DNA of 64,000 bases from Nocardioides marinus (lineage in GTDB: Bacteria; Pseudomonadota; Alphaproteobacteria; Rhodobacterales; Rhodobacteraceae): assembly GCA_019801415.1 (NCBI GenBank), contig JAHVJD010000008.1, forward strand, positions 62,001 to 126,000, written 5' to 3'. The translations under genes were made by a program, and so were the position numbers. Shown piece after piece: positions 40,290 through 61,649 of this stretch. The stretch's first letter is position 1, and the number at the start of each line of letters is the position of its first letter. The notes below the pieces were generated by a model, which worked only from the letters and a program-made list of their open reading frames with translations, did not search any database and had not been told where the DNA came from.

Positions 40290-40352
40290 GTCCTTGAAGT
40301 CCTTGGGTTTCGGGTCGGGGGCGCGGGGCCCCCGACCCTGTGTCATGAGGGG

Positions 40353-41972: not shown

Positions 41973-42866
41973 TTAGCGGCTGATTTCCTCAGCCGTGTCT
42001 CCCCCTGCGTCCGGTTGGCTGCCCGATTTGGGCAGGTCAATGCTCCGTGATGGAGCGGACGCGGCAGGTTCATAGGTCAGATCAGCGATCACCTCTGCGG
42101 CCACGAAGGCCGCGATGACGCTGGGCCGCTTGTCGCGGCTACCGCTTGCCCCGATGGGGCAGATGAGACGGTCAGTTGCCAGACCGTCGCAATGGTCCCG
42201 GCACCAGCGGCGGAATTTCTCCCGCTTGGTTGCCGATCCGATCAGCCCGACATAGCCCGCATCGCCGCGCTGCAGGGCAGCGGAGGCAAGCAGGAAGTCG
42301 AGCGCGTGATCGTGGGTGAGGACGACAAAGGCGCTGCCCGCAGGGGCGGTGGCGATGTCGATCTCGGGAATGGCGCTTTGGCGGATCTCCACATCCGCGT
42401 TGCACAGGGCCAGCTCCTCGGCACGCTGGTCGATCAGGATGCAGCGCACCGGCAGGTGCTGGAACAGATCCGCCAGCGCGCGGCCGACGTGGCCTGCGCC
42501 CATCACGTAGACATGCGGCAGGGCAGCCTGCGCTGCCTGCTCCTCGGCGAGGGCGCTGTCGCGGTCAGCCTGGCGCATCTGCGACAGCGTCACTTCCACC
42601 CGTCCGCCGCAGCACTGGCCAATTTCCGGCCCCAATGGCACGTCCAGCGTGTCGCTGATGACATGGGTTTGCAGCATCCGCCGGGCGTGGTCGATGGCGA
42701 TGTATTCCAGCTGGCCGCCGCCGATGGTGCCCCACAGGCCTTCCGCCGCCACATACATGCAGGTGCCGACCTCGCGCGGGGAAGACCCCCGCACGCGGCT
42801 GAGGCGCACCTGCACCACATGTTTGTGGCTGGACAGGAAGTCCTGAAGGGTGGCGCGGCGGTGCAT
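41973..42866 (-). CDS. xdhC: Xanthine dehydrogenase accessory protein XdhC
   Basis: 297 aa cofactor-maturation protein that binds molybdenum cofactor, promotes its sulfuration and inserts it into XdhB. N-terminal XdhC/CoxI domain (VRLSRVRGSSPREVGTCMYV, GTIGGGQLEY) and C-terminal Rossmann-like domain (VYVMGAGHVGRALADLF, YVGLIGSATKREKF). A proline/serine-rich tail ends it. Three bases separate it from xdhB. Confidence 0.93.
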   Translation of the reverse strand: MHRRATLQDFLSSHKHVVQVRLSRVRGSSPREVGTCMYVAAEGLWGTIGGGQLEYIAIDHARRMLQTHVISDTLDVPLGPEIGQCCGGRVEVTLSQMRQADRDSALAEEQAAQAALPHVYVMGAGHVGRALADLFQHLPVRCILIDQRAEELALCNADVEIRQSAIPEIDIATAPAGSAFVVLTHDHALDFLLASAALQRGDAGYVGLIGSATKREKFRRWCRDHCDGLATDRLICPIGASGSRDKRPSVIAAFVAAEVIADLTYEPAASAPSRSIDLPKSGSQPDAGGDTAEEISR

Positions 42867-46664: not shown

Positions 46665-46759
46665 CTGGCCTCCAAAGTCGTCGCTAGACAGCATGATCTG
46701 CGTTGCTGCATTTTTACACTTTCCGACTGCCACGGTTAACGGCTGCATTCGCGAAAGGC

Positions 46760-48325: not shown

Positions 48326-49585
48326 TCAGTTCGCGGCAAGCGCAAACGGCAGATCCTTGGAGGCGCTGGCGTACCAGCGGCGGATCAGCGCGCGCTCGTC
48401 CTCCTCCATGTGGGTCACGTTGGCGGGGGGCATGGCCACGGTGGCGCCGGCCTGGAGGTAGATCTCCTTGGCGTATTTCGCGACGTCGGCCGGGGTTTCC
48501 AGCAGCACGTTCTTGGGCGCGCGGCGGATGCCGTCGTAATAGGGCTCGCGCGCGTGGCACATGGCGCAGCGGCCGGGCACGACATTCATCACGTCCTCGA
48601 AATGCTGGTTGCTGGCGAAGACCTGTTCGCTCTTGGTCAGCTCCCGCGCCTCGGATTCTTCGTAGCTGTCCTGCTGCAGCGGCGCCTGGCTGAGGGCCAT
48701 GATGCCGATGAACAGGATCGCGGTGACCGGCCAGGTCCAGGTCGGGTTAGAGGTGCCCGCGTGGTTGCTGTTGAAGTAGTGGCGGATGGTCACGCCCATC
48801 AGGAACACCAGCGCCGCGATCAGCCAGTTGTACTCGGTGGCGAAGGCCAGCGGGTAGTGGTTGGACAGCATCAGGAACACAACCGGCAGCGTCAGGTAGT
48901 TGTTGTGGGTCGAGCGCAGCTTGGCGATCTTGCCGTACTTGGCATCCGGGGTGCGGCCTTCCTGCAGGTCCTTCACCACGATGCGCTGGTTCGGCATGAT
49001 GATGAAAAACACGTTTGCCGTCATGATGGTAGCCGTAAAGGCACCCAGGTGCAGCATCACCGCGCGGCCGGTGAAGATCTGGTTGTAGCCCCAGCCCATG
49101 GCGACCAGCAGCACGAACAGCAGCACCATCAGCACCGTCGGCTTTTCCCCCAAGGGCGATTTGCACAGGAAGTCATAGACCAGCCAGCCGATGCTGAGCG
49201 ATGCGCCGGAGATGAGGATACCCTGCCACAGGGCGAGATCCGCCTTGCTGGAGTCGATCAGGTACAGCTCGCCGCCGGCCCAATAGACGATCATCAGAAG
49301 CCCTGCCCCCGACAGCCATGTGGCGTAGCTTTCCCATTTGAACCAGGTCAGGTGCTCCGGCATGTTTTCCGGCGCCACCAGGTATTTCTGGATGTGATAG
49401 AAACCGCCGCCGTGGACCTGCCATTCCTCGCCATGCGCGCCGACCGGCAGGTGCGGAACCTTCCGCAGGCCAAGGTCAAGCGCGACAAAGTAGAAAGACG
49501 ACCCGATCCAGGCAATGGCGGTGATGACGTGAAGCCAGCGGACCGCAAAGCCCAGCCAGTCCCACATGATCACAAGCTCTTCCAT
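48326..49585 (-). CDS. puuD: Urate hydroxylase/oxidase PuuD (membrane, cytochrome c domain)
   Basis: 419 aa integral-membrane urate oxidase. About eight hydrophobic segments (e.g. FAVRWLHVITAIAWIGSSFYFV) precede a C-terminal cytochrome c domain with haem site CAMCH in VPGRCAMCHAREPYYDG. PuuD converts urate to 5-hydroxyisourate, passing electrons to the respiratory chain instead of making H2O2. ATG 49585 follows GAGGAGAG. Divergent from a LysR gene. No soluble uricase was seen in the window. Confidence 0.92.
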   Translation of the reverse strand: MEELVIMWDWLGFAVRWLHVITAIAWIGSSFYFVALDLGLRKVPHLPVGAHGEEWQVHGGGFYHIQKYLVAPENMPEHLTWFKWESYATWLSGAGLLMIVYWAGGELYLIDSSKADLALWQGILISGASLSIGWLVYDFLCKSPLGEKPTVLMVLLFVLLVAMGWGYNQIFTGRAVMLHLGAFTATIMTANVFFIIMPNQRIVVKDLQEGRTPDAKYGKIAKLRSTHNNYLTLPVVFLMLSNHYPLAFATEYNWLIAALVFLMGVTIRHYFNSNHAGTSNPTWTWPVTAILFIGIMALSQAPLQQDSYEESEARELTKSEQVFASNQHFEDVMNVVPGRCAMCHAREPYYDGIRRAPKNVLLETPADVAKYAKEIYLQAGATVAMPPANVTHMEEDERALIRRWYASASKDLPFALAAN

Positions 49586-49690
49586 TGTTCTCTCCTCATA
49601 AGCTTTGGCAAGGACACTAGAGCATGCCGCTATTTTCATGTATTAGGTAAAAAGTCCAAGCTGTTTCAAAATAACTCGAAGAATATCCGC

Positions 49691-50599
49691 ATGGCTTATC
49701 TCGACAATATCCGCACCTTTGTCCGGGTCTATGAACTTGGCAACATGTCGGCCGCTGCGCGCGACATGCGGATCTCGGCAGCGGTGGCATCCTCGCGGAT
49801 TTCGCAGCTGGAGGAGCATCTGAACGTGCGGCTGTTCCAGCGCACCACGCGATTGTTGAACCCGACCGAGCAGGGCAACCTGTTCTACCGCGGTGCGGTC
49901 AAGATCCTGGAGGCGGTGGACGAGGCAGAGGCCGACATCAGCAGCGTCACCCAGACGCCGCGCGGCACGCTGTATGTGGCCGCCCCCCTGGGGCTGGGGC
50001 GGCGGCTGATTGCGCCGGCGGTGCCGAAGTTCAAGGAAGCCTATCCGCTGATCTCGATCCGGTTGCGGCTGTCGGACCGCAAGCTGGATCTGGCGGCCGA
50101 GGGGCTGGATGCCTCTTTTTTCCTCGGCGTGCCCGAAGATTCAAACCTGCGCATCCGCAAGATCGCCGATTGCCCGCGGGTGCTGTGTGCCTCGCCGGAG
50201 TATATCCGCAAGCGCGGCCAGCCGAAAAACAGCGACGAGCTGAAGACGGATGCGCATGACTGTCTCAATCTGCGCTATCCCGGTGCGCCGGAGTTCCAGT
50301 GGCCGCTGCGCAGCGGGGACGGGGTCAAGCGGGTGACGGTGACGGGCCCGTTCGAATCGGACCATGGCGATGTGCTGACCAGCTGGGCGCTGGAGGGACA
50401 CGGGATCATCCTGAAGCCGGTTTTTGAAATCTCCGAGCACCTGGCCTCGGGCCGGCTGGTGCCGGTGCTGGAACAGGAGCCGCCGGTGCCGATCCAGATG
50501 GCCTGCCTTTACGTCCACCGCCGCCACCAGGACCCGAAGGTGCGGCTGTTCATGGACTTCATGGTGGATCACATCCAGGCATCGCTGCCGCAGGAATAA
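49691..50599 (+). CDS. LysR-family regulator of purine catabolism (paralogue 2)
   Basis: 302 aa; starts MAYLDNIRTFVRVYELGNMS, with HTH AAARDMRISAAVASSRISQL and effector-domain motifs matching the LysR at 46884 (GLGRRLIAPAVPKFKEAYP, LRLSDRKLDLAAEGLDA). The open frame extends hundreds of codons upstream antisense to puuD, but the ATG at 49691 aligns with the paralogue. Divergent from puuD and convergent with uraH; likely controls urate oxidation. Confidence 0.87.
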   Translation: MAYLDNIRTFVRVYELGNMSAAARDMRISAAVASSRISQLEEHLNVRLFQRTTRLLNPTEQGNLFYRGAVKILEAVDEAEADISSVTQTPRGTLYVAAPLGLGRRLIAPAVPKFKEAYPLISIRLRLSDRKLDLAAEGLDASFFLGVPEDSNLRIRKIADCPRVLCASPEYIRKRGQPKNSDELKTDAHDCLNLRYPGAPEFQWPLRSGDGVKRVTVTGPFESDHGDVLTSWALEGHGIILKPVFEISEHLASGRLVPVLEQEPPVPIQMACLYVHRRHQDPKVRLFMDFMVDHIQASLPQE

Positions 50600-50677: not shown

Positions 50678-51034
50678 TCAGCTGCCGCGGTAGGTGGAAT
50701 AGCCGTAGGGCGACAGCAGCAGCGGCACGTGATAGTGGCTGTCCGCCTCGCTGATGCCAAAGCGCAGCGGCACTTCGTCGAGGAACAGCGGATCGGCCCC
50801 GGCCTGGCCGGTGGCGCGCAGGTAATCGCCTGCATGGAACACCAGCTCATAGGTGCCGGTGGTGAATTCGGCGGCGGGCAGGATCTGCTCGTCAGTGCGG
50901 CCGTCGTCATTGGTGGTCAGGCTGCGCAGATGGGTGCGCTCAGTGCCTTCGATCCGGTAGAGATCGATTTTCAGCCCTTCTGCCGGGCAGCCGCGGGCGG
51001 TGTCCAGAACATGGGTGGTCAGAAATCCGGCCAT
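50678..51034 (-). CDS. uraH: 5-hydroxyisourate hydrolase UraH
   Basis: 118 aa transthyretin-related enzyme hydrolysing 5-hydroxyisourate (the PuuD product) to OHCU. N-terminal [16 protein letters not shown], central [26 protein letters not shown] and the C-terminal YRGS signature carry the catalytic His/Arg/His set and separate it from true transthyretins. ATG 51034 with AAGGAGG; an ATG six codons earlier is less likely. Divergent from puuE-uraD. Confidence 0.95.
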
Positions 51035-51114
51035 GCCAGCCTCCTTAGTCATGAAGTTTGGTCAAATATGCGCCGTCCGAGGCCGACCATACAGAAGGAA
51101 AGGCCAAAAAGTTC

Positions 51115-51133
51115 TTTCAAAAATTTACTGAAA
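51115..51133. promoter_or_regulatory. LysR-type operator candidate, uraH/puuE region
   Basis: TTTCAAAAATTTACTGAAA: the same TTTCA-N9-TGAAA frame as at 46760-46778 before xdhA. Lies mid-way in the divergent uraH/puuE promoter region. Confidence 0.6.
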
Positions 51134-51185
51134 GCCCGGAGCGATTATTTTGTTCTATAACTAGGAAAAAGACAGGAGACCTGAC

Positions 51186-52601
51186 GTGACGCGATACCCT
51201 CGTGATTTGCGCGGTTACGGTGCATCCGCACCCGATCCGCAGTGGCCCAACGGGGCCAAGGCCGCCGTGCAATTTGTCCTCAACTACGAAGAAGGCGGTG
51301 AAAACTGTGTTCTGCACGGGGACGCCGCATCCGAGGCGTTTTTGTCCGACATCCCCGGTGCGGCGCAATGGCCGGGCCAGCGCCACTGGAACATGGAATC
51401 GATCTATGAATACGGCAGCCGTGCCGGATTCTGGCGGCTGCACCGGCTGTTCACCGGCGCGGGCATCCCGGTGACCATCTACGGTGTTGCCACCGCCCTT
51501 GCGCGCTCGCCCGAGCAGGTGCAGGCGATGAAGGATGCCGATTGGGAGATTGCCTCGCACGGTCTGAAATGGGTCGAGCACAAGGACATGCCCGAGGAAG
51601 AGGAGCGCGCCGCCATCGCCGAGGCCGTCCGCCTGCACACCGAGGTTGTGGGTGAGCGCCCGCGCGGCTGGTACACCGGCCGCTGCAGCGCCAACACCGT
51701 GCGCCTTGTCGCCGAAGAGGGCGGGTTCGACTACATCTCGGATACTTACGACGACGACCTGCCCTATTGGCTGGACGTGAACGGGCGCGATCAACTGATC
51801 ATCCCCTACACGCTGGAAGCCAATGACATGCGCTTTGCCAATTCGCCGGGCTGGATCACGGGCGAGCATTTCTTCCAGTACCTGAAAGATGCCTTCGACG
51901 TGATCTATGCCGAGGGCGAGGCCGGGGCGCCGAAGATGATGACCATCGGTCTTCACTGCCGCCTGGTGGGGCGTCCGGGCAAGATTGCCGGGCTGAAGCG
52001 CTTCATCGACTATATCCAGGGGATCGAGGGCGTCTGGTGCCCGCGCCGCATCGACATTGCCGAGCATTGGGCGGCGACCCATCCGCCGCAGACGCGCCTG
52101 CGCCCCAGCCGGATGGCACGCGACGAATTCGTGGCGACGTTCGGCTCGATCTTCGAGCATTCGCCCTGGATCGCCGACCGTGCCTTTGATCTGGAGCTGG
52201 GTCCCGCGCATGACTGCGCCGCAGGTGTCCACAACGCGCTGTGCCGGATCTTCCGCACCGCCAGCGACGAAGAACGCCTGGGCGTGCTGACCGCGCACCC
52301 GGATCTGGCGGGCAAGCTGGCCGCCGCAGGCCGTCTGACCGCCGAGAGCACCGCGGAACAGTCCAGCGCCGGACTGGATATGCTGACGGATGAGGAGCGC
52401 GAGACCTTCACCCGGCTCAACACCGACTATGTGGAAAAGCACGGCTTTCCCTTCATCATCGCGGTGCGCGACCACACCAAGGCCTCGATCATGGAGGCCT
52501 TCGACCGCCGGATCGGCAACGACCGCGCGACCGAGTTCGACGAGGCCTGCCGCCAGGTGGAGCGTATCGCCCAGTTCCGCCTGCAGGACCTGCTGCCATG
52601 A
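51186..52601 (+). CDS. puuE: Fusion: allantoinase PuuE + OHCU decarboxylase UraD
   Basis: 471 aa, two enzymes in one chain. Residues ~1-305 are a polysaccharide-deacetylase-type allantoinase (VQFVLNYEEGGENCVLHGD, EIASHGLKWVEH, RPRGWYTGRCSANT), which opens allantoin to allantoate. Residues ~310-471 are an OHCU decarboxylase domain (FVATFGSIFEHSPWIADRA, LTAHPDLAGKLA, SIMEAFDRRIGN), which makes S-allantoin from OHCU. The fusion couples consecutive steps. GTG start at 51186 follows AGGAGA. Overlaps allA by 4 bases. Confidence 0.93.
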   Translation: MTRYPRDLRGYGASAPDPQWPNGAKAAVQFVLNYEEGGENCVLHGDAASEAFLSDIPGAAQWPGQRHWNMESIYEYGSRAGFWRLHRLFTGAGIPVTIYGVATALARSPEQVQAMKDADWEIASHGLKWVEHKDMPEEEERAAIAEAVRLHTEVVGERPRGWYTGRCSANTVRLVAEEGGFDYISDTYDDDLPYWLDVNGRDQLIIPYTLEANDMRFANSPGWITGEHFFQYLKDAFDVIYAEGEAGAPKMMTIGLHCRLVGRPGKIAGLKRFIDYIQGIEGVWCPRRIDIAEHWAATHPPQTRLRPSRMARDEFVATFGSIFEHSPWIADRAFDLELGPAHDCAAGVHNALCRIFRTASDEERLGVLTAHPDLAGKLAAAGRLTAESTAEQSSAGLDMLTDEERETFTRLNTDYVEKHGFPFIIAVRDHTKASIMEAFDRRIGNDRATEFDEACRQVERIAQFRLQDLLP

Positions 52602-53089
52602 GCCGTGAGCTGATCGCAGCGCCGCTGACAGCGGCGGCGTTTGCGCCCTTTGGCGATGTGATCGAGGTCACCGGTGCGCCGGACAAGATCATCAACCAGG
52701 GCATGTGCGGTCGTCACCACGACCGCGCAACGCTCGACTTTGGCCCCGGCGGGCGGGCGGGTATCAGCCTGTTCGACGCCAAGGCCCGGCAGCTGCCCTA
52801 TACGCTCGACATGGTGGAGCGGCACCCGGAGGGCAGCCAGGCCTTCGTGCCGGTCAGCGGCGTGCCGATGCTGGTGGTGGTGGCCGAGGACGCGGATGGC
52901 GTCCCGGTCAATCCGCAGGCCTTCATCAGCCAGCCGGGTCAGTCGATCAACCTGCACCGCGGAACCTGGCACGGGGTTCTGGCCCCGCTGGGTGCGCCCG
53001 GCCAATACATCGTCGTCGACCGCATCGGCGATACCCCGAACCTGGAGGAACACTGGTTCGAGGACCCATTTACGGTGGTTTCAGGCTGA
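52598..53089 (+). CDS. allA: Ureidoglycolate lyase AllA
   Basis: 163 aa, cupin-like enzyme splitting ureidoglycolate into glyoxylate and urea; length matches E. coli AllA. Motifs: APLTAAAFAPFGDVIEV, MVERHPEGSQAFVPVSG, and INLHRGTWHGVLAPLG (all conserved in the family). Start overlaps the puuE-uraD stop (ATGA). The glyoxylate it makes is the substrate of the bhc cycle 3-7 kb downstream. Confidence 0.95.
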   Translation: MSRELIAAPLTAAAFAPFGDVIEVTGAPDKIINQGMCGRHHDRATLDFGPGGRAGISLFDAKARQLPYTLDMVERHPEGSQAFVPVSGVPMLVVVAEDADGVPVNPQAFISQPGQSINLHRGTWHGVLAPLGAPGQYIVVDRIGDTPNLEEHWFEDPFTVVSG

Positions 53090-53170
53090 GGTCCTCGGCC
53101 TGACCACACAAACCGAAGCCGCCATAAAAACAAGAAGCGGCAAGATCCCCATGACCGACAGGAGACCCCC

Positions 53171-54607
53171 ATGGCCGATACTTCCATCGGGACGCCAGAA
53201 CAGCTGCGCGATCCCAATTACACCCCCCCTTTGCACAAGGCGATTCCGCTGGGAATCCAGCACGTGCTCGCCATGTTCGTCTCGAACGTGACACCGGCGA
53301 TCATCGTGGCGGGCGCGGCCGGTTTCGGCTTTGGCTCCAACTCGCCGGATTTTCCGGAACTGCTCTACCTGATCCAGATGTCGATGCTGTTCGCCGGTAT
53401 CGCCACCCTGTTGCAGACCCTCACCCTGGGGCCGATCGGCTCGGCGCTGCCGATTGTTCAGGGCACGTCGTTTGCTTTCCTGCCAATCATGATCCCGCTG
53501 GTTGCGGGCAAGGGCGTTGACGGTCTCGCCGCCCTGTTCACCGGCGTCATCGTCGGCGGTATCTTCCACGGCCTTCTGGGGACGGTGATCGGCAAGATCC
53601 GCTTTGCCCTGCCGCCGCTGGTCACTGGCCTCGTGGTCACCATGATCGGTCTGGCGCTGGTCAAGGTCGGCATCCAGTACGCCGCAGGCGGTGTGCCTGC
53701 GATCGGCACTCCGGAATATGGCTCGCTGCTGAACTGGTCCGCCGCGCTGGTGGTGATCGTGGTCACCCTGGGGCTCAAGTTCTTCACCAAGGGGATGCTG
53801 TCAGTCTCGGCGGTGCTGCTGGGGCTGATCGTGGGCTATGTCTACGCGCTGATGGTCGGCATGCTGAGCTTCGAGGCGATCTCCGGCTCTTGGGAGCGCG
53901 CTGCCGCCTTTGCCCTGCCGCAGCCGTTCAAATACGGGGTCGAATTCTCGGCGGCCGCCATCATAGGTTTCTGCCTGATGAGCTTTGTCTCGGCGGTGGA
54001 GACCGTGGGCGATGTGTCCGGCGTGACCAAGGGGGGCGCGGGCCGCGAAGCCACCGAGGAGGAAATCGCAGGCGCCACCTATGCCGATGGTGTCGGCACC
54101 GCCTTTGCGGGTCTGTTCGGCGCTTTCCCCAACACCTCGTTCAGCCAGAACGTGGGCCTGATCGCCATGACCGGTGTGATGAGCCGCCACGTGGTGACCT
54201 GCGGCGCGATCTTCCTGATCATCTGCGGGCTGGTTCCGAAGGTGGGCGCGGTGATCCGCACGGTGCCGATCGAAGTGCTGGGCGGCGGCGTGATCGTGAT
54301 GTTCGGCATGGTGGTCGCGGCAGGTGTCTCGATGCTGTCGGACGTGGACTGGAACCGCCGCAACATGGTGATCTTCGCCATTGCGCTCTCCATCGGCCTT
54401 GGCCTGCAGCTGGAGCCGGGCGCGTTGCAGCACATGCCGGATACAGCGCGCATCCTGCTGACCAGCGGTCTGCTGCCGGCGGCGCTGATTGCCATCGTGC
54501 TGAACCTCCTGCTGCCGCAGGATCTGGCGGGTGAAGCCACCGAGGAAGTCTCGGGCGGGCTGAGCGGGCATGGCCGCGGATCGCTACCACAGGAAGACCG
54601 CGCCTGA
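53171..54607 (+). CDS. NCS2-family uric acid/xanthine permease
   Basis: 478 aa with about 14 hydrophobic segments. Family signatures: GTSFAFLPIMIPLV in TM3 (the conserved residue after TM3), and the TM8-10 region GFCLMSFVSAVETVGDVSG with TSFSQNVGLIAMTGVMSRHV (split) carrying the substrate Glu and the NxG motif. AGGAGA precedes the ATG. Co-directional with puuE and allA, so urate or another purine intermediate is the likely cargo. Confidence 0.88.
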   Translation: MADTSIGTPEQLRDPNYTPPLHKAIPLGIQHVLAMFVSNVTPAIIVAGAAGFGFGSNSPDFPELLYLIQMSMLFAGIATLLQTLTLGPIGSALPIVQGTSFAFLPIMIPLVAGKGVDGLAALFTGVIVGGIFHGLLGTVIGKIRFALPPLVTGLVVTMIGLALVKVGIQYAAGGVPAIGTPEYGSLLNWSAALVVIVVTLGLKFFTKGMLSVSAVLLGLIVGYVYALMVGMLSFEAISGSWERAAAFALPQPFKYGVEFSAAAIIGFCLMSFVSAVETVGDVSGVTKGGAGREATEEEIAGATYADGVGTAFAGLFGAFPNTSFSQNVGLIAMTGVMSRHVVTCGAIFLIICGLVPKVGAVIRTVPIEVLGGGVIVMFGMVVAAGVSMLSDVDWNRRNMVIFAIALSIGLGLQLEPGALQHMPDTARILLTSGLLPAALIAIVLNLLLPQDLAGEATEEVSGGLSGHGRGSLPQEDRA

Positions 54608-54636
54608 GCCAGGCCGGAAGGCAACCAAAAACAGAA

Positions 54637-54664
54637 AGCCGGCCCGTGCTCGGGCCGGCTTTTT
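54637..54664. terminator. Terminator between permease and urea channel genes
   Basis: Perfect 10-bp stem AGCCGGCCCG / CGGGCCGGCT with 4-base loop, followed by TTTT on the + strand and an AAA stretch on the other side; serves convergent genes. Confidence 0.9.
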
Positions 54665-54674
54665 CCGTGGGGGG

Positions 54675-55187
54675 TTACAAGGTAATCCCGTGCAGCACTG
54701 CCAGCCCCGGCAGCCAGCCGGTGAAGACCCCGCAGAACAGAGTGGCGACGCTGGTCAGCCGGGCGCTGCCGCGGCGCAGGGCGAGGTTCAGGAAATACAG
54801 GAACCACAGCCCGGCCCAGGCCGCCCAGCAGGCCGCGAGCCACAGATCGAAGATCCCCTCGGCCTGCGCCAGCACCCGCAGGGCCATCGGCGCCGCGGTC
54901 AGCGCCACGAGACCGCTGAACCAGCCCAGACCCTCGCCGCTGGAGCCGGTTGCCCGGTTGTAGGCGACCCACAGGTAGGTGGTGCCGAACAGCAGCGTCA
55001 TGCCCGCATCCAGCAGATCGGCAGGCTGGCCCGCGGCCAGCGCGGTCAGCAGCACGATGGCAAAGAACACCAGCGCCGCCACCGCATTGATCAGGATGAT
55101 TTCCCGGTCCTGGATACGGCCCGTCTGCCAGATGCCGTTCAGGCACAGCACCACGCCCACCACCAGCAGGCTCAGTCCAAGATACAT
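54675..55187 (-). CDS. AmiS/UreI-family urea/amide channel
   Basis: 170 aa with six hydrophobic segments (MYLGLSLLVVGVVLCLNGIW, AAGQPADLLDAGMTLLFGTTYLWVAYN split, GWLPGLAVLHGITL). Pattern and size match AmiS/UreI proton-gated urea or short-chain amide channels. Placed beside allA and allE, whose pathway can release urea, it probably moves urea across the inner membrane. No urease genes are in the window. ATG 55187 with GGAG upstream; an earlier ATG (55226) is less likely. Confidence 0.82.
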   Translation of the reverse strand: MYLGLSLLVVGVVLCLNGIWQTGRIQDREIILINAVAALVFFAIVLLTALAAGQPADLLDAGMTLLFGTTYLWVAYNRATGSSGEGLGWFSGLVALTAAPMALRVLAQAEGIFDLWLAACWAAWAGLWFLYFLNLALRRGSARLTSVATLFCGVFTGWLPGLAVLHGITL

Positions 55188-55204
55188 GTTTGGAGACTCC
55201 CAAG

Positions 55205-55237
55205 AAAAAGCAGGAGAGAGGTACACCTCTCTCCTGC
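55205..55237 (-). terminator. Terminator after bhcD
   Basis: 13-bp inverted repeat GCAGGAGAGAGGT / ACCTCTCTCCTGC followed on the - strand by TTTTTC. Confidence 0.9.
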
Positions 55238-55282
55238 CGATCCGCTACGCGGATAATTGCAGAAAATGTTTCTGGCTGGGGC

Positions 55283-56248
55283 TTAGAAATCGACCTCGAT
55301 GGCGATGCCCTTTTCCACCGCGACCTCAACAACAGAGGCCGCGACGGCCAGATCCTGAAGCCCGACGCCGGTGCCGTCGAACAGGGTGATCTGGTCGTCA
55401 GACGTGCGGCCCGGGTTGGTGCCGTTGATGACCGCGCCGATCTGGGCGACGTCTGCCTCCTGGATCAGACCCTGCGCCACCGCGTGCTGCGCCTCGCCGA
55501 TGGAGACCGACTGCGCGACCTCGTCGGTGAAGACGTCGGCCTTGACCAGCAGCTGTGGGTCGACTTCCTGCTTGCCTTTGGTGTCGGTGCCCATGCAGGC
55601 GATATGGGTGCCGGGGCTGACCTGATCGGCCTTCAGGATCGCATCGAAGGACGAGGTGATCGAGATGATCACATCCGCTTCGCGCATGCCGTCCAGCTCA
55701 ACCGCCTCGAACAGCACGCCAGCCTCGTCGGCCACCTCCTGCAGGTTCGGCAGCATCTCCGGATGCAGGTTCCAGCCGATCACTTTTTCAAACTCGCGCT
55801 GCTCCAGCGCGGCGCGTAGCTGGAACTTGGCCTGATGGCCCGCACCGATCATGCCGATCACCTTGGCGTCCTTGCGGGCCAGATGCTTGATCGAGACAGA
55901 GGACGCCGCCGCCGTGCGCAGCGCGGTCAGGAGGTTGCCGCCCACCATCGCCTTCACCTTGCCGGTGTCGGGATCGAACAGGAAGACAGTGGACTGGTGG
56001 TTGATCAGTCCGCGCTTTTCCAGGTTGTTCGGCCAGTATCCACCGGCCTTCAGGCCCAGCGTCAGGCCCGCGCGGTCAAAGCCGCCCTTGAAGCCGTAGA
56101 GCGCATCTTCGTGGCCGATGGCCTCGCGCACCACGGGGAAGTTGTAGGCGTCGCCCGCGGCCATCGCCGCAAAGACCTTTTCGACCGCATCGAAGGACGC
56201 ATCGCGGGTCACCAGGTCGGCAATCGCTTTTTCCGGAACGATATACAT
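55283..56248 (-). CDS. bhcD: Iminosuccinate reductase BhcD
   Basis: 321 aa, ornithine cyclodeaminase/mu-crystallin family. NAD(P)H-binding motif VIGMIGAGHQAKFQ at residues ~130-143. In the beta-hydroxyaspartate cycle it reduces iminosuccinate to L-aspartate, closing the amino-donor loop. GAGGAGAAA precedes the ATG. Last in bhcA-B-C-D order. A hairpin with a T-run lies between bhcC and this gene. Confidence 0.92.
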   Translation of the reverse strand: MYIVPEKAIADLVTRDASFDAVEKVFAAMAAGDAYNFPVVREAIGHEDALYGFKGGFDRAGLTLGLKAGGYWPNNLEKRGLINHQSTVFLFDPDTGKVKAMVGGNLLTALRTAAASSVSIKHLARKDAKVIGMIGAGHQAKFQLRAALEQREFEKVIGWNLHPEMLPNLQEVADEAGVLFEAVELDGMREADVIISITSSFDAILKADQVSPGTHIACMGTDTKGKQEVDPQLLVKADVFTDEVAQSVSIGEAQHAVAQGLIQEADVAQIGAVINGTNPGRTSDDQITLFDGTGVGLQDLAVAASVVEVAVEKGIAIEVDF

Positions 56249-56324
56249 GTCTGTTTCTCCTCAGCAGTTGGCGCAGCCCTTGGCCGGGGTGCTGCCAAGC
56301 TGGAAATCGTTGTTGCACGGCCCC

Positions 56325-56361
56325 AAAAAAGCCGGCGGAGGGCGGCATGCGCACCTCCGCC
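56325..56361 (-). terminator. Intercistronic terminator-like hairpin between bhcC and bhcD
   Basis: On the - strand GGCGGAGG / CCTCCGCC (8 bp, 12-base loop) followed by GGCTTTTTTGG. It sits inside the operon, so read-through to bhcD would be partial unless bhcD has its own promoter. Confidence 0.7.
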
Positions 56362-56377
56362 AGTCTGGGGGTCGTTC

Positions 56378-57541
56378 TTAGTAGGCCTTGCCGCGGGCCG
56401 AGACGGGCCAGACGCATTCGACCTTGCCGCCCCGCACGCCGACGTACCAGTCATGCACGTTGGCGGTGGGGTCGCAGTGGCCGGGCACCAGGCGCAGCTT
56501 GTCGCCGACTTTCAGCGCACCGGTCGGGTCGGATACCACGCCATGCTCGTCCGAGCATTTGATGTATTCCACGTCGTCGCGGCCAAAGATGAAGGGCAGG
56601 CCGCTGTCCACGGATTGCGCCTTGAGGCCGGCATCGACGATGGCCTTGTCTGCCTTGGCGTGGCTCATCACCTGGGTCAGCAGGAAGAAGGCGTTTTCCC
56701 ACTCGCCCTGGTCGATGCGGTTGCCGTCCTTGTCCAGAATGCGGCCATAGTCCGCGTCCATGAAGGCGTAGGAGCCGCACTGCAGCTCGTTGTAAACGCC
56801 CGAGTTCGACTCGAAATAGTAGGACCCGGTGCCGCCGCCGGAGACCAGCTCGCACTCGATGCCTTCCTTCTTCAAGCCTTCGACCGCATCGGCAACCTGC
56901 GCGATGGCGATGTCCAGCTTGGCCTTGCGGTCCTCGTAGCTGTCCATGTGCTGCATGGCGCCCTGATAGGCCTGGATGCCGGTGAACTTGAGGTTTTCTG
57001 CCGCGTTCACGGCCTTGGCGATTTCTACAACCGCTTCGGTGGTGGTCACGCCGCAGCGGCCCGCGCCGCAGTCGATCTCGACAAAGACTTCCAGCTCGGT
57101 GCCGTGCTTTTGCGCCGCTGCCGACAGGTCGGCCACGTTGTCGATGTCATCAACGCAGACGATGGTGCGCGCGCCCAGCTTTGGCAGGCGGGCGAGACGG
57201 TCGATCTTCAGCGGGTCGCGGACCTGGTTGGAGACCAGGATGTCCTTGATGCCGCCGCGGGCAAAAACCTCAGCCTCGGAGACCTTCTGGCAGCAGACGC
57301 CAACCGCGCCGCCGAGTTTTTCCTGCAGCTTGGCCACATCCACTGACTTGTGCATCTTGCCGTGCACCCGGTGGCGCATGCCGTGCGCCTTGGCGTAATC
57401 GCCCATCTTCTTGATGTTGCGCTCCAGCGCGTCCAGGTCGAGGACCAGCGCCGGGGTCTGGATGTCGGCCTCGTCCATGCCCGGTACCGCCGGGACGTCA
57501 TAGCCGACTTCGAGCTGATCAAAATTTGTCTGTGCGTTCAT
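56378..57541 (-). CDS. bhcC: Beta-hydroxyaspartate aldolase BhcC
   Basis: 387 aa D-threonine-aldolase-family enzyme joining glycine and glyoxylate to erythro-beta-hydroxyaspartate. PLP lysine is probably Lys62 in HRVHGKMHK; the metal site is His355-Cys-Asp357 in VPGHCDPTANVHD, the aldolase-type pattern. Preceded by GGGGAAC. Second paralogue of this fold in the window (other at 9150-10205 with His-x-Cys). Confidence 0.94.
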   Translation of the reverse strand: MNAQTNFDQLEVGYDVPAVPGMDEADIQTPALVLDLDALERNIKKMGDYAKAHGMRHRVHGKMHKSVDVAKLQEKLGGAVGVCCQKVSEAEVFARGGIKDILVSNQVRDPLKIDRLARLPKLGARTIVCVDDIDNVADLSAAAQKHGTELEVFVEIDCGAGRCGVTTTEAVVEIAKAVNAAENLKFTGIQAYQGAMQHMDSYEDRKAKLDIAIAQVADAVEGLKKEGIECELVSGGGTGSYYFESNSGVYNELQCGSYAFMDADYGRILDKDGNRIDQGEWENAFFLLTQVMSHAKADKAIVDAGLKAQSVDSGLPFIFGRDDVEYIKCSDEHGVVSDPTGALKVGDKLRLVPGHCDPTANVHDWYVGVRGGKVECVWPVSARGKAY

Positions 57542-57557
57542 TGTTTTGTTCCCCAGT

Positions 57558-58511
57558 TTAGCTGTTCATCCAGGGCAGCTTGTCGAGGTCGACATTGCCG
57601 CCGGTGACAATCAGGCCCACGCGTTTGGCCGCGAAGGCGTCCTTGTTTTTCAGAATGGTGGCGAGTGGGACCGCGGAGGACGGCTCCATCACGATCCGCA
57701 GGTGCTTCCAGATCAGCTTCATCGCGTCGATGATCTCCGCGTCCGAGGCGGTGTAGATCTCGCTCACGTGGTTGCTGACGAAATGCCAGGTCAGATCCTT
57801 CAGCGGCACCAGCAGCCCGTCGGCCACGGTTGTGGGCGCATCATCGGCGATGATGTAGCCCGCCTTGAAGCTGCGGTAGGCGTCATCGGCCTGCTCCGGC
57901 TCTGCCGCGATCACCTGGGTTTCCGGCGCCAGGTTGGACAGCGTCAGGCAGGTGCCCGAGATCATGCCGCCGCCGCCAATCGGGGCCACAACCATGTCCA
58001 GACCATCCGTTTGCTCCACGAACTCCTTGGCGCAGGTGCCCTGCCCCGCGATGACGCGGTGGTCATTGTAGGGATGCACGAAATCGCCGCCGGTCTCGGC
58101 CTGCACCTTGGCAAAGGTCTCCTCGCGCGAGGAGGTCGAGGGCTCGCATTCGGTGATCCGCCCGCCGTAGCGGCGCACTGTGTCCTTCTTGGCCTGCGGC
58201 GCGGTGCGCGGCATGACCACGTTGCAGGGAATGCCGCGCAGCATCGCTGCGTAAGACAGGCAGGACGCATGGTTGCCCGAGGAATGCGTCGCGACGCCCT
58301 TCTTCGCCTGTTCCTCATCCAGTCCGAACACCGCGTTGGTGGCACCGCGCACCTTGAAGGCGCCCGGCTCCTGGAAGTTCTCGCATTTGAAGAACAGCTC
58401 TGCCCCGGTCAGCTCATTCAGAAAGGCAGAGGTGCGCACCGGCGTGCGCCGGATGTGCGGCTGAATGCGCTCATGCGCGGCCAGCATGTCCTCGTAGGTC
58501 GGGATATACAT
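57558..58511 (-). CDS. bhcB: Beta-hydroxyaspartate dehydratase BhcB
   Basis: 317 aa fold-type II PLP enzyme (threonine/serine racemase-dehydratase family) converting beta-hydroxyaspartate to iminosuccinate. PLP lysine Lys53 in AFKVRGATNA, glycine loop APIGGGGMISG, and SSGNHAS. I chose the ATG at 58511 (MYIPTYEDML) because AAGGAT sits at good spacing; an ATG five codons earlier overlaps the bhcA stop. Between bhcA and bhcC. Confidence 0.93.
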   Translation of the reverse strand: MYIPTYEDMLAAHERIQPHIRRTPVRTSAFLNELTGAELFFKCENFQEPGAFKVRGATNAVFGLDEEQAKKGVATHSSGNHASCLSYAAMLRGIPCNVVMPRTAPQAKKDTVRRYGGRITECEPSTSSREETFAKVQAETGGDFVHPYNDHRVIAGQGTCAKEFVEQTDGLDMVVAPIGGGGMISGTCLTLSNLAPETQVIAAEPEQADDAYRSFKAGYIIADDAPTTVADGLLVPLKDLTWHFVSNHVSEIYTASDAEIIDAMKLIWKHLRIVMEPSSAVPLATILKNKDAFAAKRVGLIVTGGNVDLDKLPWMNS

Positions 58512-58525
58512 AGCGGTATCCTTCA

Positions 58526-59716
58526 TCAGGCGGCAGCCTTGGCGCTGGAGGCGGTGTTGCCGCGGTAGTAGTCCTGCGCCGCCGCCACGCCAGAGCCCAG
58601 CGGGATGTTCAGGCCAAGGTCGGCCATCACCATTTCGGCGGTTGCGATGCCCGACAGGGCCATCACGTCGGTCAGGCTGCCGAGGTGGCCGATGCGGAAC
58701 ACCTTGCCCGCGACCTCACCCAGGCCGGTGCCGAAGGCGACGCCGTATTTCTCGGCCGCCAGGCTGACGAACTTGTTGGCGTCAAAGCCTTCGGGCGTGC
58801 GGATCGCGCTGACGCTGTCTGAGTAGACGTCCGGCGACACCGCGCACAGCTCCAGCCCCCAGGCGCGGACTGCGGCGCGCACGCCCTCGGCAATCCGGTG
58901 GTGGCGAGCAAAAACGTTCTCCAGCCCTTCGTCCAACAGCATACCACAGGCCATGTTCAGACCGTTCAGCAATCCGACCGACGGCGTGTAGGGGTAGGCG
59001 CTGTTGGCGTAGCCTGCGGCCATGTCCTTGATATCAAAGAAGGTGCGCGGCAGGGTCGCGGTCTTGGCGGCCTCCATTGCCCGTGGCGAGAAGCCGACGA
59101 TGGCGAGGCCCGGCGGCAGCATGAAGCCCTTTTGCGAGCCGGTGACGGCAATGTCGACACCCCATTCGTCCATGCGGAAATCCATCGAGGCGATCGAGGA
59201 CACGCCGTCGACAAACAACAGCGCCGGGTGTCCGGCTGCATCCAGCGCGCGGCGGACGGAGGCGATGTCCGATTTCACACCGGTTGCGGTTTCGTTGTGG
59301 GTGGCCAGAACCACCTTGATCTCGTGCGATGTGTCGGCGGTCAGGATTTCCTCGTAGCGGTCGGCCGGGATGCCCTGCCCCCAGGGGGTTTCAACCACCT
59401 GCACGTCCAGCCCGTGGCGCTGGCACATGTCGATCCAGCGGTGGCTGAACATGCCGTTGCGCGCAGCCAGAACCTTGTCGCCTGCGTTCAGCGTGTTGGT
59501 GATAGCGGTTTCCCAGCCGCCGGTGCCGGTGGACGGGAAGACGAAGATCTCGGCACTCTCACTTTTCAGAACCTTCTTCACACCTTCCAGCGCCGGGTGC
59601 AGGATCTGGCCGAACAGCGGCGAGCGGTGGTCCAGCGTCGGCATGTCCACTGCCTTGCGCAGCGCTTCGGGCATGTTGGTGGGACCGGGAATGAAAACCG
59701 GGTTTTGAAAGCTCAT
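58526..59716 (-). CDS. bhcA: Aspartate-glyoxylate aminotransferase BhcA
   Basis: 396 aa class V aminotransferase (serine-glyoxylate type) that aminates glyoxylate to glycine with L-aspartate as donor. Cofactor lysine Lys196 in TGSQKGFMLPPG; N-terminal FIPGPTNMPEALRKAVDMP and FPSTGTGGWE bind PLP phosphate. AGGAGGG precedes the ATG at 59716. First gene of bhcABCD, divergent from bhcR. By family alone it could be a serine-glyoxylate transaminase; the full cluster decides. Confidence 0.94.
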   Translation of the reverse strand: MSFQNPVFIPGPTNMPEALRKAVDMPTLDHRSPLFGQILHPALEGVKKVLKSESAEIFVFPSTGTGGWETAITNTLNAGDKVLAARNGMFSHRWIDMCQRHGLDVQVVETPWGQGIPADRYEEILTADTSHEIKVVLATHNETATGVKSDIASVRRALDAAGHPALLFVDGVSSIASMDFRMDEWGVDIAVTGSQKGFMLPPGLAIVGFSPRAMEAAKTATLPRTFFDIKDMAAGYANSAYPYTPSVGLLNGLNMACGMLLDEGLENVFARHHRIAEGVRAAVRAWGLELCAVSPDVYSDSVSAIRTPEGFDANKFVSLAAEKYGVAFGTGLGEVAGKVFRIGHLGSLTDVMALSGIATAEMVMADLGLNIPLGSGVAAAQDYYRGNTASSAKAAA

Positions 59717-59788
59717 GTCGTGCCCTCCTGTGGCGATTTCCTGCACCTTAATATGGGGCGGCGCGGAGGGAAATTTTTTTGAAAAAAG

Positions 59789-59823
59789 CTTTCACAAATG
59801 CAAGAAAGTTAGAATTTTTGCAT
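59789..59823. promoter_or_regulatory. Inverted repeats in bhcA/bhcR promoter (BhcR site candidate)
   Basis: CTTTC (59789-59793) and GAAAG (59804-59808) flank ten bases; overlapping it ATGCAA (59798-59803) and TTGCAT (59818-59823) flank 14 bases. The AT-rich divergent region is the expected target of an IclR regulator. Confidence 0.5.
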
Positions 59824-59914
59824 GAATTCAAGTGCTTTAGTTTTTTCACTGTACAGAATGCGTTTTCATAATTATCCATAAGCTGCTGTTTGAATTGCCG
59901 TGGGAGGCTTGGAA

Positions 59915-60730
59915 ATGTCGCAGGCACCGCGTCGCAAGGGGCGCCCCAAAGCGTTCAACGCCAGCAGCCAGCCTGCCACCATCCAGTCGCTGGACCGGGC
60001 GTTGGACGTGCTGGATGCGCTGGCCGGGGCCAGTGGCATGACGCTGACCGAACTTGCTACCGCGCTGGACCAGTCGGCGGCCACCATGTACCGGGTGCTG
60101 TCCACGCTGGAGGCGCGCCAGATCGTCGAGATGGAGCCGCAGACGCAGACCTGGCATATCGGCGCGATGGCCTTCCGCCTCGGCTCTGCCTTCCTGCGGC
60201 GCTCTGGGGTGATCGAACGCGCCCGACCGGTAATGCGCGAGCTGATGGAGGCCACCGGCGAGACCTCCAACCTCGGCATCGAACGCGGTGGTGACGTTAT
60301 GTTCGTGAGCCAGGTGGAAACCCATGAATCGATCCGCGCCTTCTTTCCGCCGGGAACCACGTCGCCGATGCACGCCTCGGGCATCGGCAAGGCATTGCTG
60401 AGCTGTTACGGCGAAGACCAGTTGACCCGGTTCCTGCGCGGCCGCACGCTGGAGCGCTTTACCGCGAAAACCTTGACCTCGGCGGATGCTTTGCGCGCGG
60501 ATCTGGAACAGATCCGCAGTCGTGGTTGGTCCTTCGATGACGAGGAAAAGGCCCCCGGAATGCGCTGCGTCGCGGCGCCTGTCCTGGGCATGCAGGGCGA
60601 GGTGCTGGCGGGGATTTCGGTTTCCGGTCCAACCGCACGGATGCCCGATGGCGGCATCAGCGGAATTGGCACCCTGGTCAAGGAGGCCGCGGCCAAGCTG
60701 TCGCACGGGCTGGGTGCCCCGGCGGGCTGA
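59915..60730 (+). CDS. bhcR: IclR-family regulator BhcR
   Basis: 271 aa. N-terminal IclR HTH (MTLTELATALDQSAATMYRVLSTLE region, split) and C-terminal GAF-like effector domain (TSPMHASGIGKALLSCY, GWSFDDEEKAPGMRCVAAPVLG split). In Paracoccus BhcR controls bhcABCD in response to glyoxylate. ATG 59915 with GGGAGG; an upstream GTG at 59900 is less likely. Divergent from bhcA. Confidence 0.9.
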   Translation: MSQAPRRKGRPKAFNASSQPATIQSLDRALDVLDALAGASGMTLTELATALDQSAATMYRVLSTLEARQIVEMEPQTQTWHIGAMAFRLGSAFLRRSGVIERARPVMRELMEATGETSNLGIERGGDVMFVSQVETHESIRAFFPPGTTSPMHASGIGKALLSCYGEDQLTRFLRGRTLERFTAKTLTSADALRADLEQIRSRGWSFDDEEKAPGMRCVAAPVLGMQGEVLAGISVSGPTARMPDGGISGIGTLVKEAAAKLSHGLGAPAG

Positions 60731-60760
60731 CGGCAGTGTTACGGCGCCGCATGAAAAGAA

Positions 60761-60789
60761 CGCCCCGGAACCATCAAGGGTCCGGGGCG
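60761..60789. terminator. Hairpin between convergent bhcR and allE
   Basis: 9-bp perfect stem CGCCCCGGA / TCCGGGGCG with an 11-base loop; on the - strand TTCTTTTC follows. Confidence 0.7.
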
Positions 60790-60818
60790 CGAAATCTTGG
60801 CTTGTCAGAACTACCGCA

Positions 60819-61649
60819 TCAGCGCTGCGGTGCCAGCGGCATGTGGCGGTTCACATCCTTGTAGAGCAGGTAACGGAACTTGCCCGGTCCGCCGGCATAG
60901 CAGGCCTGCGGGCAGAAGGCGCGTAGCCACATGTAATCGCCGGCCTCGACCTCGACCCAGTCCTGGTTCAGACGGTAGACCGCCTTGCCCTCCAGCACGT
61001 ACAGCCCGTGTTCCATCACATGGGTCTCGGCAAAGGGGATCACCGCGCCGGGTTCAAAAGTGACGATGGTCACATGCATGTCGTGGCGCAGGTCGTTGGG
61101 ATCGACAAAGCGGGTGGTGGCCCATTTGCCCTCGGTGCCCGGCATCGGGGTCGGGTCGACGTGGTTTTCGTTGGTGACAAAGGCGTCGGGCGCGTCCAGA
61201 CCTGCAACCGCCTGATAGGCCTTGCGGATCCAGTGGAACCGCACCGGCGCATCGCTGTTGTTGCGCAGGCTCCAGTCGGCCGCGGGGGGCAGGTAAGCAT
61301 AGCCGCCCTCCTCCAATTCATGCGGTGTTCCGTCGATGGTCAGCGTCATTGCGCCCTGCACCACGAACAGCACCGCCTCGGTGCCGGCTTCGGTTTCCGG
61401 CCGGTCGCTGCCGCCGCCGGGCAGCACCTCGGCAATGTACTGCGAGAAGGTCTCGGCGAAGCCGGACAGCGGGCGCGACAGCACCCAGAAACGGGACTTC
61501 TCCCAGAACGGCAGCAGGCTGGTGACGATGTCGCTCATCGTGCCCTTCGGGATCACCGCGTAGGCGTCGGTGAACATGGCGCGGTCGGTCAGCAACTGTG
61601 TCTGCGGCGGCAGCCCGCCTTCTGGTGCGTAGTAGGATCGTTTGGTCAT
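60819..61649 (-). CDS. allE: (S)-ureidoglycine aminohydrolase AllE
   Basis: 276 aa bicupin that hydrolyses ureidoglycine to ureidoglycolate and ammonia. N-terminal cupin has VLFVVQGAMTLTIDG and ELEEGGYAYLPP; the C-terminal cupin carries the Mn-site pattern FAETHVMEHGLYVLEG with later WLRAFCPQACYAGG. GAAAGG precedes the ATG. It lies past bhcR, so the allantoin genes flank the bhc cluster on both sides. Confidence 0.93.
   Translation of the reverse strand: MTKRSYYAPEGGLPPQTQLLTDRAMFTDAYAVIPKGTMSDIVTSLLPFWEKSRFWVLSRPLSGFAETFSQYIAEVLPGGGSDRPETEAGTEAVLFVVQGAMTLTIDGTPHELEEGGYAYLPPAADWSLRNNSDAPVRFHWIRKAYQAVAGLDAPDAFVTNENHVDPTPMPGTEGKWATTRFVDPNDLRHDMHVTIVTFEPGAVIPFAETHVMEHGLYVLEGKAVYRLNQDWVEVEAGDYMWLRAFCPQACYAGGPGKFRYLLYKDVNRHMPLAPQR

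Follow-up and report, generated by a model that had tools for sequence, protein, structure and literature searches.

A probable purine-to-C4 catabolic cluster built around a complete beta-hydroxyaspartate cycle in the Rhodobacteraceae

The beta-hydroxyaspartate cycle, encoded by bhcABCD, is discussed as a marine route for algal glycolate. In Paracoccus denitrificans, the reactions of the enzymes and the response of the regulator BhcR to glyoxylate have been established. There, bhc expression and growth on glyoxylate require BhcR, and a palindromic BhcR site has been proposed to lie upstream of bhcA (PMC11323563). The introduction of that paper already names purine bases and allantoin as possible suppliers of glyoxylate. 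In the titles, abstracts and passages searched, a link between purine and bhc genes was found nowhere beyond this introductory sentence, and an earlier description is possible. The available part of another study presents glyoxylate carboligase (Gcl) as the partner of allantoin breakdown in Pseudomonas aeruginosa (PMC12694930), and a strain of Donghicola that lacks the aldolase gene is described as using glycolate for energy only (PMC7574528).

The window, the whole stretch of 64,000 nucleotides that was analysed, was annotated from its open reading frames with NCBIfam models and their cut-offs, and with Pfam where NCBIfam was silent (Table 1). The original prediction of uraH, puuE-uraD, allA, a purine permease, bhcABCD-bhcR and allE was borne out, as all of these were open frames above the NCBIfam cut-off where a model matched, and the gene claimed as a urea channel could be assigned to the AmiS/UreI family. 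The upstream half of the cluster (guaD, xdhABC and puuD, all on the minus strand) had been missed in that first list. The genes and their family membership are established by this analysis. All enzymes from xanthine to allantoate are encoded in the window (xdhABC, puuD, uraH and puuE-uraD), and the beta-hydroxyaspartate cycle set is complete, with BhcA to BhcD over all four cut-offs and a divergent BhcR. The true start of bhcA is probably residue 11. The LysR-type gene beside puuD is a candidate purine regulator. K62, which we take to be the PLP lysine of BhcC, and H355 and D357, presumably its HxD metal site, were identical letters in all 101 BhcC sequences from complete blocks and in all 23 orphan sequences.

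Table 1. Positions of the purine and bhc features in the window.
Feature	Positions	Strand	Evidence
guaD, guanine deaminase	38985..40346	-	TIGR02967 553 bits, cut-off 375
xdhC, xanthine dehydrogenase accessory protein	41973..42866	-	TIGR02964 276 bits, cut-off 162
xdhB, xanthine dehydrogenase Mo subunit	42870..45188	-	TIGR02965 1333 bits, cut-off 850
xdhA, xanthine dehydrogenase small subunit	45201..46748	-	TIGR02963 672 bits, cut-off 467
puuD, membrane urate oxidase	48326..49639	-	Pfam Urate_ox_N 445 bits; no NCBIfam match
LysR-type regulator (start approximate)	49730..50599	+	Pfam LysR_substrate, HTH_1
uraH, 5-hydroxyisourate hydrolase	50678..51052	-	TIGR02962 132 bits, cut-off 87
puuE-uraD fusion, allantoinase and OHCU decarboxylase	51186..52601	+	TIGR03212 529 bits, TIGR03164 214 bits, both above cut-off
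allA, ureidoglycolate lyase (releases glyoxylate and urea)	52598..53089	+	NF002952 292 bits, cut-off 260
NCS2 family xanthine-type permease	53171..54607	+	TIGR03173 427 bits, cut-off 414
AmiS/UreI-family channel	54675..55226	-	Pfam AmiS_UreI PF02293 153 bits; no NCBIfam match
bhcD, iminosuccinate reductase	55283..56248	-	NF045643 592 bits, cut-off 500; top PDB match 6rqa
bhcC, beta-hydroxyaspartate aldolase	56378..57541	-	NF045642 771 bits, cut-off 690; end-to-end alignment with 6qkb
bhcB, beta-hydroxyaspartate dehydratase	57558..58526	-	NF045641 584 bits, cut-off 550
bhcA, aspartate-glyoxylate aminotransferase	58526..59746	-	NF045640 759 bits, cut-off 650, from residue 11
Predicted BhcR operator, TGAAA-N5-TTTCA type	59775..59799	.	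BhcR matrix score 34.5, top site of the window
bhcR, IclR-family regulator, divergent from bhcA	59900..60730	+	NF045644 417 bits, cut-off 350
allE, (S)-ureidoglycine aminohydrolase, convergent with bhcR	60819..61649	-	NF008376 539 bits, above cut-off

No gene dedicated to the allantoate step lies in the cluster. The AllE of the window also passed NF040771, named 'bifunctional allantoicase/(S)-ureidoglycine aminohydrolase', with 509 bits against a cut-off of 350. Two AllC-type candidates could be found outside the cluster in the same genome, scoring above NF006769 and far below the AllC equivalog TIGR03176, and a search of this genome without a positive control gave no Pfam match for allantoicase. 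The genome further contained urease, malate synthase G as an alternative glyoxylate outlet, and, on a separate contig, glycolate oxidase genes (glcDE) as an alternative glyoxylate source. The AmiS/UreI gene shares the strand of bhcD and follows it after 56 bp, and therefore probably closes the bhc operon in the lineage of the window; it was a rare bhc neighbour, at 2 of 131 family-draw loci and 6 of 80 named loci.

The window likely carries a purine-to-C4 catabolic cluster, in which the beta-hydroxyaspartate cycle assimilates purine-derived glyoxylate besides glycolate. Guanine and xanthine would be converted to urate by guaD and xdhABC, and urate to allantoate by PuuD, UraH, UraD and PuuE. 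Allantoate could then reach ureidoglycine through an AllC-type enzyme encoded elsewhere or a bifunctional AllE, and ureidoglycolate through AllE, from which AllA would release glyoxylate and urea. Glyoxylate would act on BhcR and lead to expression of bhcABCD-amiS, presumably as one transcript, the cycle would turn two glyoxylates into oxaloacetate, and the channel would move urea, its putative role. Induction of bhc by purines and carbon flux from them are to be expected under this scheme, and purine-derived glyoxylate may be a main physiological input. The original statement that ring carbon is recovered holds for only two of the five purine carbons, C4 and C5, and is otherwise too broad, as the others leave as CO2 and urea; two purines would therefore give one oxaloacetate.

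Conservation of the arrangement was evaluated in a family draw of 246 Rhodobacteraceae genomes, the window's own included. Together with the window it provided 131 bhcC loci, 101 with complete bhcABCD, of which 78 had uncut flanks. A named set, overlapping the family draw, comprised the best 80 matches to the window's BhcC (74 complete). Purine-ureide neighbours were scored as AllE, AllA, UraH, PuuE, UraD or PuuD within about 10 kb of the bhc block. At least one, two and four such genes occurred at 38, 30 and 28 of the 101 complete blocks, at 31, 24 and 23 of the 78 uncut ones, and at 47, 38 and 31 loci of the named set. By our estimate, at least two would be met by chance at about 1% of loci or less in a 4 Mb genome (binomial test); the 24 of 78 uncut blocks thus show that the association is not a chance one. 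The predicted adjacency was therefore retained in relatives, across many genera and several gene orders. The order varied with lineage, the commonest being identical across many loci; variants were allE between uraD and allA (nine loci), xdhA-puuD-uraH-NCS2-[bhc]-puuE-uraD-allE (three Paracoccus), [bhc]-allE-allA-puuE (Ruegeria pomeroyi), allE-allA-[bhc] (Oricola) and xdhCBA-[bhc]-allE (four loci). On the BhcC tree, the purine-linked state changed 23 times, a count inflated by the poor resolution of the tree (48 of 129 inner branches open). AllA and AllE occurred together without a bhc block in seven of ten AllA regions examined from genomes below the bhcC threshold. GlcD or GlcE could be found within reach of bhcC at none of the 131 family-draw and window loci and none of the 80 named loci; the same probes were positive beside bhcC at one of ten class-wide loci (L248). 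Gcl, surveyed by scoring no more than five candidates in each genome, had neither a match at E<=1e-200 nor one above the model cut-off in the 246 family genomes, the window's own included, while the E. coli control was positive. This result and the recurrent association are established here. As purine genes surround bhc in many marine Rhodobacteraceae, purine breakdown very probably feeds the cycle, a role already established for glycolate breakdown.

A link to purines is not a general property of the bhc block, which limits the purine-to-C4 reading. No purine gene was within reach of 63 of the 101 complete blocks (47 of the 78 uncut), and fewer than two were within reach of 54 of the 78. In a class-wide draw of 337 genomes, 47 of them with bhcC above the threshold, none of ten examined bhcC stretches (8-10 kb) contained a purine gene. 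AllA was found in 230 of the 246 family genomes, and its presence was not associated with that of bhcC (121 of 127 bhcC-positive and 109 of 119 bhcC-negative genomes; Fisher p 0.30), six of the 127 bhcC-positive genomes having no AllA match. Purine genes are also not the only recurrent bhc neighbours, an idea that was ruled out by an about equally common family of divergent GAPDH-like genes, the second recurrent neighbour (31 of 121 loci). Two more recurrent families were LysR regulators, all 23 ORFs of one of them coming from purine-linked loci, and others were ABC transporter ATPases.

A matrix for BhcR was built from 78 bhcA-bhcR intergenic regions, including that of the window. The second-best site of the window scored 7.7 and sits between uraH and puuE. 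When 42 uraH-puuE promoters were scored, those of complete-block loci had a median of 4.1 (13 of 28 at 5 or above), and those without bhcC a median of -5.5 (2 of 8). In a test with 30 simple shuffles, nearly all shuffles were beaten by 15 of 28 complete-block and 4 of 8 bhcC-less promoters. The six rows designated 'orphanC' in this comparison include L059, a contig-cut block with bhcD. The promoters carry a conserved element of their own (CTTTC... TTTTTTGAAA), with and without bhc alike, and no clear BhcR operator shared by bhc and purine genes could be recognised across the 42.

Purines might instead be used for nitrogen, with bhc, or bhcC alone, only detoxifying leftover glyoxylate at little net carbon gain. 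Purine catabolism gives far more nitrogen than usable carbon, and purine use does not require bhcC, since AllA was present in 109 of the 119 family genomes in which bhcC was unmatched at threshold. We consider this explanation unlikely, because the full four-enzyme cycle yields a C4 product, beyond what removal needs, and because the genome of the window already has malate synthase G.

Orphan bhcC, without bhcA, bhcB or bhcD alongside, was found at 23 loci, six of them inside purine clusters and five of these directly behind allE; no match to BhcB or BhcD at the thresholds used was found in the six genomes concerned. One such orphan (L115) is nested in a complete-cycle clade beside L052 with supports of 97/88. 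A long open frame suggestive of an AllE-BhcC fusion (L116) was rejected, as the coordinates place the two genes in different frames. Tentatively, a BhcC-type aldolase may itself belong to the purine pathway and be expressed together with AllE. In some genomes without BhcB or BhcD matches it would condense glycine and glyoxylate from purines, with beta-hydroxyaspartate as the product of a short outlet that forms no cycle; part of the diversity of the cycle would then have been shaped inside purine clusters and not by glycolate alone. The allE-bhcC pair is unstudied and offers a new lead. The stronger proposal, that BhcC is the key physiological partner in purine clusters and the remaining cycle secondary there, draws on the same six loci and on L115, but is improbable, as 17 of the 23 orphan loci showed no purine gene in the examined stretch and the window carries the whole cycle.

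Synteny inherited without functional meaning, after a glycolate-serving bhc block landed by chance in an ancestor's purine cluster, would explain the commonest order through one insertion and agrees with the glycolate oxidase genes elsewhere in the genome and with the study of bhc as a glycolate pathway (PMC11323563, available in part), but it is very unlikely given the several clearly different orders in which the genes stay together, the 23 state changes counted on a poorly resolved tree, the lack of glcD/glcE beside bhcC at the 131 loci, and the occurrence of bhcC alone in purine clusters.

If purines feed bhc too, the same four enzymes would connect carbon recovery with dissolved organic nitrogen in a bacterial family that gave no Gcl match in our survey. 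Compared with the glycolate cluster of P. denitrificans, as far as PMC11323563 was available, the window has the same five genes with divergent bhcA and bhcR, a BhcC aligning end to end with 6qkb, and, in front of bhcA, a predicted palindromic BhcR site like the one proposed in that species. The comparison covers the bhc genes themselves. In the window, a cluster that leads from guanine to ureidoglycolate surrounds bhc, a channel gene follows bhcD, and glycolate oxidase genes lie elsewhere in the genome. In the available part of PMC12694930, the P. aeruginosa gcl cluster PA1498-PA1502 likewise passes glyoxylate from allantoin to a net assimilation module, allantoin-induced there, but by a carboligase route to glycerate and pyruvate rather than the beta-hydroxyaspartate cycle. 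A glyoxylate-using module also adjoins the purine degradation cluster in the Rubrobacter xylanophilus operons (PMC4016543, likewise available in part), where the downstream genes lead from glyoxylate to glycerate, in place of bhc, and the allantoate enzyme is different. Closest in layout are two bhc-less purine clusters of the same family (L148 and L149), in which PuuD-UraH-PuuE-UraD-AllA-NCS2-AllE follow the order and strands of the window, whereas the bhc block between permease and allE is present in the window only.

Annotation of the window, which lies on contig 8 of a 20-contig genome of 3.9 Mb, revealed the order guaD, xdhC, xdhB, xdhA, puuD, uraH, puuE-uraD, allA, NCS2 permease, AmiS/UreI channel, bhcD, bhcC, bhcB, bhcA, bhcR, allE. 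PuuD and the channel were called using Pfam, while the other calls exceeded the NCBIfam curated cut-offs. Purine genes around the bhc block, as originally predicted, could be confirmed by these matches in the right half of the cluster; the left half (guaD, xdhCBA, puuD), which that prediction did not cover, completes the route from guanine onward. BhcC shared 98% identity with its counterpart in Leisingera aquaemixtae, 97% with one from a Rhodobacteraceae metagenome bin, and 95–96% with those of two other Leisingera, which places the window in a roseobacter. Since bhcA-B-C-D and amiS run in one direction with no more than about 130 bp between neighbouring genes, the channel gene probably shares a transcript with the cycle genes. 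Such a channel gene was uncommon beside bhc elsewhere (2/131 family-draw loci and 6/80 loci of the named set).

Further features of the window are listed in the table. The 528-amino-acid frame between guaD and xdhC was hydrophobic by eye and had no significant match in Pfam or NCBIfam; similar frames were present in four other loci, and it is perhaps a purine transporter. Past the cluster lies an ABC transporter in which Pfam identified a permease and a TOBE-domain ATPase; it resembles modABC and might supply molybdenum to xanthine dehydrogenase. The second, distant BhcC-family protein scored 203 bits against NF045642, far under the cut-off, carried HVC instead of HCD at its metal site, and served solely as an outgroup.

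Location of features in the window and in surveyed loci (L numbers; GAPDH-like genes occur in others also)
Feature	Sequence	Position	Strand or context
Purine-bhc cluster, guaD to allE	window	38985-61649	
528-amino-acid frame	window	40353-41939	minus
ABC transporter	window	61768-63968	minus
Second BhcC-family protein	window	9150-10247	minus
Predicted BhcR site	window	59775-59799	TGAAA-N5-TTTCA type
uraH-puuE gap	window	51053-51185	
GAPDH-like gene	L084	11610-12611	same strand, after bhcD or orphan bhcC
GAPDH-like gene	L030	11616-12611	same strand, after bhcD or orphan bhcC
GAPDH-like gene	L018	7247-8230	same strand, after bhcD or orphan bhcC
GAPDH-like gene	L126	10647-11672	same strand, after bhcD or orphan bhcC
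glcD, glcE near bhcC	L248	192-5829	
BhcR-like regulator	L146	7829	adjoins allA

The recurrence of this layout was evaluated in 246 Rhodobacteraceae genomes, nearly every one from a different genus, of which 127 contained a BhcC match (E ≤ 1e-120) and 230 an AllA match. Neighbourhoods of up to 20 kb (shorter at contig ends) around 130 of 131 bhcC places, the 131st being the window itself, were annotated using the window proteins as probes. Complete bhcABCD was present at 101 of the 131 loci. At least one, two, and four purine-ureide genes (AllE, AllA, UraH, PuuE, UraD, PuuD) accompanied 38, 30, and 28 of these blocks, and among the 78 whose flanks each extended 8 kb or more the counts were 31, 24, and 23, with 47 having none. 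In the named set, 74/80 loci were complete and the counts were 47, 38, and 31; this set consists of the loci scoring highest against the window's BhcC and is not independent of the family draw, because some contigs, judging by their equal lengths, are shared. Adjacency in related genomes recurs, with at least two such genes at 30 of 101 complete blocks, but not everywhere: 63 blocks had none, and no purine genes were found in ten stretches from a class-wide draw. The bhc-purine layout is real and recurrent in the family.

Gene orders varied considerably. Most frequently, the bhc block lay between the permease and allE. AllA and AllE stood without a bhc block in 7 of 10 AllA regions (not random picks) from genomes under the bhcC threshold, and in nine loci allE separated uraD from allA. 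In three Paracoccus the block was flanked by puuE-uraD-allE at its bhcR end and by NCS2-uraH-puuD-xdhA at its bhcD end; Ruegeria pomeroyi had allE-allA-puuE behind bhcR, Oricola had allE-allA on the bhcD side, and in three Aliiroseovarius and one Roseovarius bhc was flanked by xdhABC and allE. On the BhcC tree, a quickly built one that covered 85 of the 101 rows and in which many branches were weak, the linked state required 23 changes, and this repeated re-formation argues for function, not frozen synteny, behind the neighbourhood. Two loci (L112, L113) carried bhcB-bhcC-bhcD without bhcA or bhcR, in genomes (G153, G090) each having a complete block elsewhere (L021, L056). In three loci of the gammaproteobacterium Marinobacterium (L175, L201, L205), bhcC was 88–89% identical to that of the window, which suggests horizontal transfer.

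The least expected result was an allE-bhcC gene pair. Orphan bhcC, with no adjoining bhcA, bhcB, or bhcD, occurred at 23 loci, some on short stretches, and all 23 proteins kept the presumed catalytic positions. BhcB (E ≤ 1e-80) was found in none of the 22 orphan-bhcC genomes searched, and a BhcD-like match under the cut-off in one (G196, outside purine clusters). Six orphans lay inside purine clusters (L115, L116, L126, L136, L139, L144; allE only in L126), and in five of them bhcC immediately followed allE on the same strand, with start-stop overlap in L136 (ATGA), L144 (GTGA), and possibly L116; the two genes were 29 bp apart in L126 and 123 bp apart in L115. L115 grouped with L052 (supports 97/88) within the clade of complete cycles and the other five fell outside it, thus the arrangement probably has more than one origin. 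L127, an orphan without purine genes, was placed differently by two BhcC trees.

Clustering of neighbouring frames from 121 loci revealed one family other than the purine genes that equalled them in frequency (33 frames, 31 loci) and was found with and without them. It was GAPDH-like but divergent: one member was identified as GAPDH by Pfam, and five others scored 315–351 bits against the GAPDH-I model, all below its cut-off of 367. Thirty of the 33 frames lay on the bhcD side on the bhc strand, typically about 2 kb from bhcC; the gene is absent from the window, where the channel gene occupies its position. The protein may serve gluconeogenesis from oxaloacetate or may be a divergent dehydrogenase.

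The palindrome TGAAA-N5-TTTCA was found exactly in 53 of 98 bhcA-bhcR intergenic regions and with at most one mismatch in 78, compared to none of 98 shuffled regions within one mismatch. In P. denitrificans, bhc expression requires BhcR, which responds to glyoxylate (PMC11323563). If BhcR acts likewise here, purine-derived glyoxylate would induce bhc and a dedicated purine regulator would be unneeded. The second-best BhcR-type site of the window, in the uraH-puuE promoter, scored weakly. The uraH-puuE gap and its equivalents contained a conserved CTTTC...TTTTTTGAAA element, with and without bhc, which is probably a purine-regulator site. In L146, from a genome under the bhcC threshold, the regulator beside allA was BhcR-like (49% identity).

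Between urate and glyoxylate, three of the five ring carbons leave as CO2 and urea. Because just C4 and C5 reach glyoxylate, the two glyoxylates obtained from two purines yield one oxaloacetate. The step with no clearly assigned enzyme in the cluster is that from allantoate to ureidoglycine, which may be performed by an AllC-type enzyme, candidates being present on contigs 2 and 4 of the same genome, or by a bifunctional AllE. Urease and malate synthase G are also encoded in this genome, and glcDE lies on contig 4 (GlcD under its curated cut-off). Probes from this genome detected no GlcD or GlcE within reach of bhcC in the 131 family-draw or 80 named loci. They did detect both genes near bhcC and part of bhcD in L248, a locus outside the family, indicating that the probes work; bhcA and bhcB were undetected in the 10 kb examined there. 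None of the 246 family genomes showed a glyoxylate carboligase match (strict threshold, up to five candidates scored per genome; E. coli control positive). The cluster is best read as a purine-to-C4 pathway whose cycle is shared with glycolate. Its component parts were already known; the merged purine-bhc cluster is new as far as our literature search reached.
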